A stretch of 64,000 nt of DNA from positions 186,001 to 250,000 of the forward strand of contig CAMCXI010000001.1 of the NCBI GenBank assembly GCA_945883335.1. Reading direction: 5' to 3'. Within the stretch, counting starts at the first letter, position 1. Every line of letters starts with the position of its first letter. The position numbers were made by a program, and so were the translations under genes. Source of the stretch: Candidatus Methylopumilus universalis. Lineage in GTDB: Bacteria; Pseudomonadota; Gammaproteobacteria; Burkholderiales; Methylophilaceae. This document shows positions 6,377 through 34,953 of this stretch, piece by piece. Under the pieces are notes generated by a model, which saw only the letters and a list, made by a program, of their open reading frames with translations, was not told the origin of the DNA and did no database searches.

Positions 6377-8164
6377 ATGCGTACTCATTATTGCGGACAT
6401 GTAAACCGCGACCTCATTGGCCAAACAGTAACTTTATGTGGTTGGGCGCATCGTCGCCGCGACCATGGGGGCGTTATTTTTATCGACTTGCGTGACCGTG
6501 AAGGCATGGCACAAATTGTGATTGATCCAGATACCCCTGCAGCATTTGTAATCGCTGAATCAGTGCGTAGCGAGTATGTATTGAAAGTGACCTGTAAAGT
6601 TCGCCCTCGCCCAGAAGGCACTGTGAACAAAAACATCCCAACCGGTGAAGTGGAAATGTTGGCAAGTGAGATTGAGATTCTCAATGCATCGCTTACCCCG
6701 CCATTTATGTTGGATGATGAAAACTTAACTGAAACCGTGCGTCTTGAGCATCGTTATATCGACCTTCGTCGCCCAGCGATGCAAAAAAATATGATGTTGC
6801 GTTACCGCGTGGCAAAGACCTTGCGTGATCATTTAGATAGCAATGGCTTTATTGAAGTTGAAACGCCAATGTTGACCCGCAGCACCCCAGAAGGTGCGCG
6901 AGATTACTTAGTGCCAAGCCGTGTGCATCATGGCATGTTCTTCGCCCTGCCACAGTCACCACAGCTATTCAAACAGTTATTGATGGTGTCAGGTTTTGAT
7001 CGTTATTTCCAAATCACGAAATGTTTCCGTGACGAAGATTTGCGCGCTGATCGTCAGCCAGAATTTACCCAAGTGGATATCGAAACTTCATTCTTGGGCG
7101 AAGAAGAGATTATGAACATTGTCGAAGACATGATTCGTAAGATGTTCAAGGGTGTGCAAGATATCGACTTGCCAGCACGATTCCCACGTATGCCATTCTC
7201 TGAAGCCATGACCCGTTATGGTTCAGACAAGCCTGACATGCGCGTCACGCTTGAAATCACTGAGCTTTCAGATGTGATGAAAGATGTGGATTTCAAAGTA
7301 TTCGCAGGCGCTGCCAATATGGAAAATGGCCGTGTTGCGGCTTTGCGTGTGCCTAACGGCGCGGCAATCACTCGTTCTGGCATTGACGCGTACACTGAAT
7401 TTGTGAAGATTTATGGCGCTAAAGGTTTGGCGTACATTAGGATTAACGACATTACCCAATTAAACGAAGAAGGTCTGCAAAGCCCGATTGTAAAGAACAT
7501 TCACCAAACAGCTTTGAAGGCGATTATTGAACGCACAGGCGCACAAAATGGCGATATCATTTTCTTTGGCGCGGATAAAACTAAGATCGTGAACGAGGCC
7601 TTAGGTGCTCTCCGTCTTAAAGTGGGGCACGAACATGGCCACGTGGATGGCCGTGCTTGGGCACCGCTGTGGGTGGTGGACTTCCCAATGTTTGAGCATG
7701 ATGAAGAAGCAGATCGTTGGGTTGCCCTTCACCATCCATTCACGGCACCAAAAGATGGTCACGAAGACTTACTCGCGACTAACCCTGGCGCTTGCTTATC
7801 TAAAGCTTACGACATGGTGCTTAATGGCTGGGAAGTGGGCGGCGGTTCAGTGCGTATCCACAAACAAGAAGTGCAATCAAAAGTATTTGATGCCTTGAAG
7901 ATTAGCAAAGAAGAAGCCCAAGAAAAATTCGGCTTCTTGCTCGATGCACTCCAATACGGCGCGCCACCACACGGCGGTTTGGCTTTCGGTCTAGATCGCT
8001 TAGTCACCTTGATGGCGGGTGCTGAGTCTATTCGTGATGTGATTGCGTTCCCGAAAACACAACGTGCACAATGTTTGATGACCAACGCACCAAACGAAGT
8101 AGATGAAAAACAACTACGTGAGTTGCATATTCGAGTGCGTACGCCAAATGTGGCAGGCGCTTAA
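6377..8164 (+). CDS. aspS: Aspartyl-tRNA synthetase
   Basis: Full-length class II Asp[18 protein letters not shown] and [10 protein letters not shown] motifs. Confidence 0.98.
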
Positions 8165-32528: not shown

Positions 32529-34430
32529 ATGGCAAAAGATAAAGATCAGCAAAACGAACAAAACATGGATAAAAACGAAGATCAAGCGGTTGATGGGCGC
32601 ACGCGTCTTAAATTACTGATTGTGCTTGGTAAGGAGCGCGGCTACCTTACTTACGCCGAAATCAATGACCATTTACCAGATGATTTTCAAGATTCTGAGC
32701 AAATAGACGGCATCATTGGCATGATCAATGACATGGGCATTCAGGTCTATGAAGAGGCGCCTGATGCTGAAGTGTTATTGATGTCAGATGCGCCAGCCGC
32801 CGTTGCTGATGAAGATGCGGTTGAAGAAGCTGAACAAGCTTTAGCGACGGTAGATTCTGAGTTCGGTCGTACGACAGACCCAGTGCGTATGTATATGCGT
32901 GAAATGGGCACAGTTGATTTGCTGACGCGCGAAGGCGAAATTGAAATTGCTAAGCGGATTGAAGATGGCTTAAAACACATGGTGCAAGCGATTGCTGCTT
33001 GCCCTACAACGATTGCTGAATTGTTAGCAATGGTTGATAAAGTTGAAGCAGATGAACTGAGCGTTGATGACTTAGTGGATGGCTTGATCGATTCAGATGT
33101 TGGCATGGATAACGTAATGCCTGTCACCAGCGATGAAGAGGAAGAGCCTGAGATTGAAGAAGAGGACGATGACGGCGCAAAAGCGGCTGCGATCTCTGCT
33201 GAAGTCTTAGCTAAGCTTAAAGAGGAAGTATTGGTTCGATTCGCCGTTATCCGTGAATCAAACAAAAAAATGACGGTGATTCTTGAAAGCAAAGGCTCTC
33301 AAGATCCTGAATATCAAGCCCTACAAGCGGCCATTCTGGAAGAGCTGACTGTTTTCCGTTTTTCAGCAAAACAAGTTGAAGGTCTTTGCGGTCAAGTGCG
33401 TGATATGGTGGAAAGAGTCCGCGGTCACGAACGTAAAATTATGGAATTCTGTGTTGATAAATCAGGCATGCCACGCACGCACTTTATCAAATCATTCCCA
33501 GGTAATGAGTGTGAGCTGACTTGGCTTGCTGGTGAATTGGCGGTTGATAAGCCATATGTTGAAAAACTAGAGCGCTTCAAACACTCTATCGTGGATCAAC
33601 AACAACGCCTGCTCGATTTACAAGCCGACGTTGGTTTGCCAATCAAAGAACTAAAAGACATCAACAAGCAAATGACCACAGGCGAAGCCCGTGCTCGTCG
33701 TGCTAAACGTGAGATGATTGAAGCGAACTTGCGTTTGGTGATTTCGATTGCTAAAAAATACACCAACCGTGGTTTGCAATTCCTGGACTTGATTCAAGAA
33801 GGCAATATCGGCTTGATGAAAGCGGTTGATAAATTTGAATATCGCCGCGGTTATAAGTTCTCGACCTATGCAACATGGTGGATTCGCCAAGCGATTACGC
33901 GTTCTATCGCTGACCAAGCGCGCACCATCCGTATTCCTGTGCATATGATTGAAACGATTAACAAGATGAATCGTATCAGCCGTCAAATTTTACAAGAAAC
34001 AGGCTTGGAGCCAGATCCAGCAACGCTTGCTGAGAAAATGGAAATGCCAGAAGATAAGATTCGCAAGATTCTTAAAATCAGCAAAGAGCCAATTTCCATG
34101 GAAACGCCAATTGGTGATGATGATGACTCACATTTGGGTGACTTTATCGAAGACAACACAACGCTTGCGCCAGTAGATGCCGCGGTTTATGCAAGCTTGC
34201 GTGATGCAACGAGTGAAGTTTTGGAGTCACTCACCCCACGAGAAGCTAAAGTCTTGCGTATGCGTTTCGGTATTGAAATGAATACTGATCACACGCTAGA
34301 AGAAGTAGGTAAACAGTTTGATGTCACGCGTGAGCGTATCCGTCAAATCGAAGCGAAGGCGCTACGCAAATTGCGCCATCCAACTCGCTCAGAGCGGCTT
34401 CGTAGCTTCTTGGAAACTGGTCAAGACTAG
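32529..34430 (+). CDS. rpoD: RNA polymerase sigma-70 factor
   Basis: [28 protein letters not shown]; region 4 [32 protein letters not shown]. Confidence 0.98.
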
Positions 34431-34449: not shown

Positions 34450-34492
34450 GGCCCCTTAGCTCATGCTTGGTTAGAGCAGCGGACTCATAATC
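34450..34492 (+). pseudogene. Truncated intron-less 5' fragment of tRNA-Ile(CAU)
   Basis: ggccccttagctcatgcttggttagagcagcggactcataatc is identical to the 5' exon at 34629-34667 plus the first 4 nt of the 3' exon (aatc, 34873-34876); the tRNA 3' half is then absent. Confidence 0.9.
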
Positions 34493-34628
34493 TATTCAAT
34501 AAGTTATGTATAGGTTATAAAATATTTATAAATCAGTGCTTTAGGTTTATAATGCGTAGCAAAAATTGCTTCTACAGTGCTTCTACACTTTCTGTCGTAG
34601 CAGCATTATAAAAGTAAGTTAAGTTTAA
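34493..34628 (+). repeat. 136-bp AT-rich segment between the tRNA fragment and intact tRNA, with inverted and direct repeats
   Basis: TATAATGC (34548-34555) / GCATTATA (34603-34610) inverted repeat; TGCTTCTACA at 34567-34576 and 34578-34587; CGTAGC at 34555-34560 and 34596-34601. Confidence 0.6.
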
Positions 34629-34912
34629 GGCCCCTTAGCTCATGCTTGGTTAGAGCAGCGGACTCATATATAGATGTGCCATACGATAGGAAACTTTGTA
34701 TGGGATGGTGTCAAATTCGGTGAAACCTGACGGCAGTAAAATGCACAAGGCAATGCCGAGCGAAGCTTAGTGTGAAAGCACTTTGAACGTGTAGAGACTA
34801 GACGGCACCCACCTAAAGCGAAAGCCATGGTGAAGGCATAGTCCAGGGAGTGGTGAAAGCCACACAAACCAGAATCCGTTGGTGCTGTGTTCGACTCACA
34901 GAGGGGCCACCA
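34629..34912 (+). tRNA. tRNA-Ile(CAU) (Ile2, TilS-type), interrupted by a group I intron; exons 34629-34667 and 34873-34912, CCA encoded
   Basis: Joined exons fold as a cloverleaf: acceptor GGCCCCT/AGGGGCC, anticodon arm GCGGA-CTCATAA-TCCGT, T arm CTGTG-TTCGACT-CACAG, 3' CCA; resembles E. coli tRNA-Ile2(CAU). Confidence 0.94.
34668..34872 (+). ncRNA. Group I self-splicing intron (subgroup IC3-like, Azoarcus tRNA-Ile type), 205 nt, no ORF
   Basis: IGS GTG pairing with 5'-exon CAT (U.G at splice site); P2 ccatac/gtatgg with GAAA loop; conserved ggatggtgtcaaattcgg and gtgtagagactagacggcaccc core blocks; ggcatagtccagggagtgg...cacacaaaccag ending in omega-G. Confidence 0.93.
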
Positions 34913-34915
34913 ATT

Positions 34916-34953
34916 AAAAAAGACCTAGAGGTAAAATCCTCTAGGTCTTTTTT
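34916..34953 (+). terminator. Rho-independent terminator after tRNA-Ile (may also serve the minus strand)
   Basis: aaaaagacctagaggtaaaatcctctaggtctttttt. Confidence 0.85.

Follow-up and report, generated by a model that had tools for sequence, protein, structure and literature searches.

The tRNA-Ile2(CAU) gene of the window (the whole stretch of 64,000 nucleotides analysed here) lies in what is very probably the scar of a tRNA-dependent integrative element, which supplied its host with a replacement tRNA-Ile2 carrying a group I intron. We attribute the delivery of the tRNA gene to such an element because the 5' half of the gene is duplicated upstream, because the intervening spacer holds candidate attP arm sites and because element-borne homologues are found beside integrases. 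The window itself has kept neither an integrase nor the element body, so the window's element is deduced from its relatives. An earlier note had read the locus as an ORF-less group I intron in tRNA-Ile2(CAU), which stands, and had treated it as a simple intron, a view that we replace with the one given here.

According to the mechanism we propose, a tyrosine integrase used the core CTCATAA to recombine attP with the host tRNA-Ile2 at its anticodon loop, and the host 5' half was left behind as attL. A shared core of this small size does not allow integration to rebuild the tRNA, and the element therefore carries a complete tRNA-Ile2 just inside its left end. This element-borne gene bears the group I intron between the anticodon and A37. 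The sequences themselves show the site of integration, the short core, the unrestored tRNA, the complete element-borne gene of the same isotype and the group I intron within it; splicing would be required for a working tRNA, and we infer that the intron is spliced in vivo. In the window the element body would since have disappeared, the simplest route being recombination of the 3' exon on the element with the host 3' half that formed part of attR, and the copy with the intron would have stayed as the only tRNA-Ile2 gene found. This route of loss is suggested by the right flank of the locus, which is the native flank of the congener G008: the region 34916–34953 matches the downstream flank of the intronless gene in that genome (blastn, 91%).

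The split of the gene at 34629–34912 after its anticodon, claimed in the earlier note, was recovered by ARAGORN with introns allowed, which places a 205-nt intron after CAU; joining 34629–34667 to 34873–34912 gives a 79-nt cloverleaf with anticodon CAU and an encoded CCA. The note's other readings of the sequence hold as well at the positions it gives. Its expectation that a linear tRNA search might be blind to the locus was also borne out, as default ARAGORN reported no tRNA in the window and an Rfam scan at the gathering threshold returned nothing there; default tRNA and Rfam scans overlook such intron-bearing genes. The group I hallmarks are in place: the IGS GUG (34676–34678) pairs with the exon CAU in P1, a U.G pair stands at the splice site and the intron ends in G (34872). 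P2 and the core helices P3, P4, P5, P5a, P7, P8 and P9 are present, and the P3/P7 pseudoknot forms (Table 1). The covariance model RF00028 matches 34655–34865 over its full length (E=2e-11) with 48.9 bits, a match that needed relaxed filters and falls just short of the gathering score (50). Among 46 relatives, the intron helices have 93.7% of their cells paired, and 20 pairs are changed on both sides. Both-side changes amount to 174 cells against 54 in shuffles, with 0 of 500 shuffles as high, and this signal drops sharply when helix partners are slid as a control. The peripheral helix P6a is paired in only half of the cells because length varies in this region. The intron belongs to a family found in other families of the same order. 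The earlier note likened it to the Azoarcus tRNA-Ile(CAU) intron, of subgroup IC3, to which it may belong.

Table 1. Features of the tRNA-Ile2 locus (positions in the window)
Feature	Position	Strand	Basis or remark
Presumed rpoD (sigma-70), landmark	32529–34430	+	ORF; conserved upstream neighbour of tRNA-Ile2 in the family, same in relatives
Putative attL scar: original host tRNA-Ile2, 5' half up to and including the anticodon loop	34450–34492	+	Identity to 34629–34668
Core CTCATAA within the putative attL scar, then TC	34484–34490	+	
Spacer attributed to the element (attP arm), 138 bp	34491–34628	+	Homology with the spacers of further intron carriers and with the G006 C76 tandem junction
Direct repeats TGCTTCTACA, two copies	34567–34576, 34578–34587	+	Exact repeat, 11 bp apart
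5' exon of the intron-bearing tRNA-Ile2	34629–34667	+	Ends in anticodon CAU; ARAGORN on spliced and unspliced sequence
att-like core within the intron-bearing copy	34663–34669	+	Reads CTCATAT; alignment of att contexts
Group I intron, 205 nt, ORF-less	34668–34872	+	RF00028 E=2e-11; helices and covariation
P3 helix of the intron	34707–34712 with 34804–34809	+	Coordinates checked
P7 helix of the intron	34796–34800 with 34839–34843	+	Coordinates checked; P3/P7 pseudoknot forms
3' exon of tRNA-Ile2, CCA encoded	34873–34912	+	ARAGORN
Hairpin and T run, probable terminator	34916–34953	+	Sequence inspection

An exact repeat of the initial 40 bases of the tRNA stands at 34450–34489 (40 bp identical to 34629–34668), 179 bp upstream, between the intact gene and an ORF which, from its sequence, we take to be rpoD. 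After this repeat come ATC and then non-tRNA sequence; upon inspection, no tRNA 3' half was found after the half-tRNA at 34450–34492, which departs from restoration of the Islander type. The single-contig congener G008 possesses one intact intronless tRNA-Ile2 in the same place after rpoD, where the orphan half sits in the window, and the same orphan half occurs in G005, G003, G009 and G006. Within the spacer, the two copies of TGCTTCTACA are probable arm-type sites of the integrase, as judged from their sequence and position. Their spacing and nearly the same distance to the core recur in G005, G003, G009, G006 and G159, in the Comamonas-like locus L247 and in the Polynucleobacter locus L228, the Polynucleobacter version of the repeat reading GCTTACACA. 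The spacer holds a possible promoter at 34525–34553, but the promoter scan gave one where 1.0 was expected, no better than chance. The hairpin at 34916–34953 was not reported by the simple scan.

The junctions expected of an integrative element are found among the relatives. In G006, contig C72 has a host half followed by an intron-bearing tRNA, whose intron is divergent and inserted at the same site; in C76, TTGAAGCTACTCATAATCTATTCAAG, an attP-like tandem junction, precedes a further intron-bearing tRNA; on C134, TTGAAGCTACTCATAATC adjoins the 3' half and downstream genes of the host, which makes it an attR; and C105 opens within the 3' end of an intron-bearing tRNA and runs on into an A3-type integrase gene (see below). 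In G159, attL, an intron-bearing tRNA and attR lie within 1.25 kb. Polynucleobacter and its relatives provide all three forms, with AGAGGA-CTCATAA-GAAAG at attL, TCTGCT-CTCATAA-GAAAG at the tandem junction and TCTGCT-CTCATAA-TCCTTTGG at attR. The core common to the att sites is CTCATAA, attL holding the 5' half only and attR, in the relatives, the 3' half only. The distance from attL to attR is about 5.7 kb in L231 and about 2.9 kb in L247, and in the relatives the interval from attL to the integrase contains a complete tRNA-Ile2. The two acceptor stems of G009 differ, that of the orphan half being of the host type (GGGCCTC) and that of the intron-bearing gene of the foreign GGCCCCT type. The intron-bearing copy itself retains the core site on the left and the greater part of the overlap (CTCATAT in the window, CTCATAA in L247).

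Three loci deserve separate description. At L234 (2461–2700), TCTGCTCTCAT precedes the intron, in place of the tRNA 5' half; it looks like an element integrated at an intron-bearing copy, which would make it an exception to full protection. At L252 (about 600–960, Polynucleobacter sp. es-MAR-4), the tRNA-Ile2 that comes after the orphan half and the spacer is native and intronless, and the element is degenerate, a state that may reflect intron loss or an unaltered replacement. L100 (G113 C4) carries three tandem intron-bearing tRNA-Ile2 at 7638, 11354 and 15080, about 3.7 kb apart, of which one is intact and two are decayed, with a decayed A3-type integrase beside one; this array would represent successive integrations, the older copies decaying.

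Within the family of the window, the orphan half was found in 16 of 21 intron-bearing tRNA-Ile2 loci versus 0 of 29 intronless loci, in which it was sought within 900 bp (30 were scored and one was set aside, its 5' sequence not being tRNA). The Fisher p value of about 4e-9 overstates the independence of these loci because they share descent. The other five intron-bearing loci comprise two tandem junctions (G006 C76 and G147a), one truncated half (G147b) and two with none, namely G007, of the same genus, and the degenerate G159b.

The possibility that the host possesses a single tRNA-Ile2 gene agrees with our searches, as the intron-bearing copy is the only one found in an assembly of 1.6 Mb in 12 contigs with 92.8% estimated completeness, a value that leaves some room for a second copy. 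This sole-copy status is based on family and pattern searches of the assembly: RF00028 gave one locus; the RF00005 hits included no second tRNA-Ile2, the two other CAT tRNAs among them being by sequence the initiator and elongator Met; and the intact CTCATAATCNNTTGG core was absent throughout the assembly. As the intron-bearing gene appears to be the sole tRNA-Ile2, decoding of AUA in this host probably depends on splicing of the intron, and, if that sole gene is element-derived, it relies on horizontal transfer as well as on ribozyme splicing. The same genome (G000) also has decayed fragments of this intron away from rpoD, at C1:6338–6436 (L043) and C6:16707–16755 (L053), one of which keeps a decayed 3' exon; they are probably relics of older element copies.

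An integrase alignment was built from three genes downstream of intron-bearing tRNAs (G216, G442 and G227), with a match to a PHROG integrase. In an integrase-anchored scan of one genome each of 84,980 species, made without reference to introns, the CAU|A37 intron was present in the tRNA-Ile2 upstream of the integrase at 15 of 48 loci, and a second group I intron, at U33|C34 of the upstream tRNA-Ile2, at 5 of 48. At L220, L222, L226 and L231 the tRNA-Ile2 is intronless, with an anticodon stem unlike attB (e.g. TCGACTCATAATCGA), and stands behind an att half or junction. The layout extends to Polynucleobacter, Comamonas, Limnohabitans and Rhodoferax, with two intron sites or stem-recoded intronless replacements. 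A single intact tRNA-Lys, the classical arrangement, was found at L219, L239, L240 and L255; members of the integrase family likewise adjoin tRNA-Met, tRNA-Lys and tRNA-Leu, and many of the remaining loci are truncated or degenerate. We also considered one P4-type integrase, carrying PF00589, for all elements. It was rejected, since it adjoins intron-bearing tRNA-Ile2 only in G056 and G121; most of its relatives in the family are at other tRNAs or at intact tRNA-Ile2. The commoner integrase family at these elements is the second one (alignment A3), for which a PDB profile search gave only a marginal match to an integrase (E=0.038); its AlphaFold model was of low confidence (pLDDT 47.7) and was set aside. 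The element integrase had 0 matches among 50,697 phage records. The cargo observed includes genes for R-M and TonB as well as trb genes, and in appearance the carriers are Burkholderiales genomic islands and ICE-like elements.

Could the half-tRNA have arisen without any mobile element? A resident intron with a half left by local tandem duplication would suit the several intron-bearing tRNA-Ile2 loci in other families, and the congener G007, that have no upstream half. Such a duplication would have to end at the same core in many genomes and be followed there by shared spacers with arm repeats; moreover, attR and tandem junctions exist, integrases adjoin and the half is absent from all 29 intronless loci, so we consider this origin highly improbable, and tandem-duplication debris as the source of the half was rejected on the attR, the attP-like junctions and the intronless controls. 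The genome is metagenome-assembled, in 12 contigs, and contigs of several congeners break within the locus, which would be compatible with an assembly artefact. Here the chance is close to nil: the window's contig is 372 kb long and unbroken at the locus, and the same layout in the single-contig genomes G173, G216 and G568 and in named Polynucleobacter isolates led us to discard this explanation.

The role of the intron within the element is a more balanced matter. By replacing the right-hand half of the anticodon-loop attB, the intron may act as a shield through which the replacement gene escapes being targeted by the integrase of its own element or by related ones, a role that we infer by comparing loci and favour slightly. 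Its support comes from convergence, as the two insertion sites, the divergent intron of G006 C72 and the stem recoding all alter the attB region, and from the excess of altered replacement copies over native ones; it is weakened by the survival of the left core and most of the overlap, and by the L234 and L252 cases. The alternative shares the element origin and sees the intron as riding on element-borne replacement tRNAs with no effect on integration, a means by which it would spread because it lacks a homing endonuclease. This is a serious possibility, though the less probable one in our estimation: the intron is ORF-less, the intron-bearing copy still has its left core site together with most of the overlap, one integration has probably occurred at such a copy (L234) and, the elements sharing ancestry, their repeated association with introns may be inherited. 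Against it stand the same changes of the attB region, at two insertion positions, by a divergent same-site intron and by stem recoding, and the fact that a native intronless replacement was seen only once, at L252, where the element is degenerate. For the shield reading in its wider form, in which introns and recoded stems shield attB and the elements are the vehicle by which ORF-less tRNA introns, perhaps with the Azoarcus ribozyme among them, are spread over the Burkholderiales and over tRNA isotypes, we see an even chance. The function thereby suggested for the intron would be to guard an essential tRNA against recombination.

The Azoarcus-type intron occupies the same tRNA, at the same point after CAU, with about 205 nt and no ORF, as here; its peripheral helices, according to the earlier note, differ from those of the window's intron. 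It is not known to be linked to an integrative element. The Azoarcus-type intron is listed among beta-proteobacterial tRNA introns (PMC4033280), and the close homologue G563 shows no upstream half. tRNA-dependent lysogeny has been described for actinobacteriophages (Guerrero-Bustamante and Hatfull 2024, PMC10865867), with tRNA-Ile2-CAT and tRNA-Leu-CAA among the target genes. These phages share with the present elements a tyrosine integrase, a short common core (about 10 bp) in a tRNA gene and a tRNA that is not rebuilt. However, the paper describes no introns in their replacement tRNAs and has the word only in a reference title, whereas here the replacement has a group I intron or a recoded stem, lies directly inside attL and travels on island- or ICE-like carriers. 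Islander-type islands (PMC4383910) resemble the present case in combining a tyrosine integrase with a tRNA target, and relatives of our integrase sit beside single intact tRNA-Lys, tRNA-Leu or tRNA-Met genes; such islands restore the target with their own tRNA 3' portion, while here the broken host gene is not repaired and the element provides an entire gene. For archaea, tRNA introns have been proposed to impede integration (Randau and Soll, discussed in Sugahara et al. 2012, PMC3293823). That proposal shares with ours the ideas that later integration is blocked when the att site holds an intron and that elements can import the intron, but the archaeal introns discussed there are removed by the tRNA splicing endonuclease, whereas ours are bacterial group I ribozymes; here they lie in complete replacement genes, and integrases and att sites are found nearby. 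A search of the open-access literature found no bacterial precedent linking group I introns, tRNA and integrative elements. tRNA-dependent integration is known from phages, and by that search a replacement tRNA with a group I intron is new; beyond actinobacteriophages, the process now takes in the genomic islands and ICE-like elements of Burkholderiales described here. It also offers a testable answer to how ORF-less group I tRNA introns spread, namely inside the replacement tRNA genes of integrative elements, and the same idea would account for the anticodon-loop position of such introns.

Outside the family, a model of the family intron matches 61 of 399 genomes of the order, in tRNA-Ile2, Leu(UAA), Leu(CAA), Ser(UGA), Arg(CCU), Asn(GUU) and Thr(UGU). 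Orphan halves lie upstream of the tRNA-Ile2 copies of G489, G369, G216, G568, G312, G442 and G227 and of the tRNA-Leu copies of G526 (two loci), G528 and G374, the tRNA-Leu elements of G526 and G528 extending into trb-type conjugation genes. The link with elements is not universal, because a half is lacking at most of the other intron loci in tRNA-Leu, Ser, Arg, Asn and Thr. tRNA-Asn(GUU), tRNA-Thr(UGU) and tRNA-Ser(UGA) are not known as standard intron-bearing bacterial tRNAs; group I introns occur in them at L171, L189, L183, L184, L169, L173 and L181, in Burkholderiales-type genomes.

DNA methyltransferases or type I restriction-modification genes are often found beside intron-bearing tRNA-Ile2 (L108, L105, L200 and L318), and this R-M and methyltransferase cargo suggests a role as defence islands. 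At L318 (4001–4107), on the Comamonas aquatica plasmid pB1A, a remnant of the intron and 3' exon lies between an IS3 transposase and type I restriction-modification genes. L319 (3001–3166), on the 1.26-Mb plasmid of Tritonibacter mobilis, holds an intron core that is 73% identical, on an alphaproteobacterial replicon.
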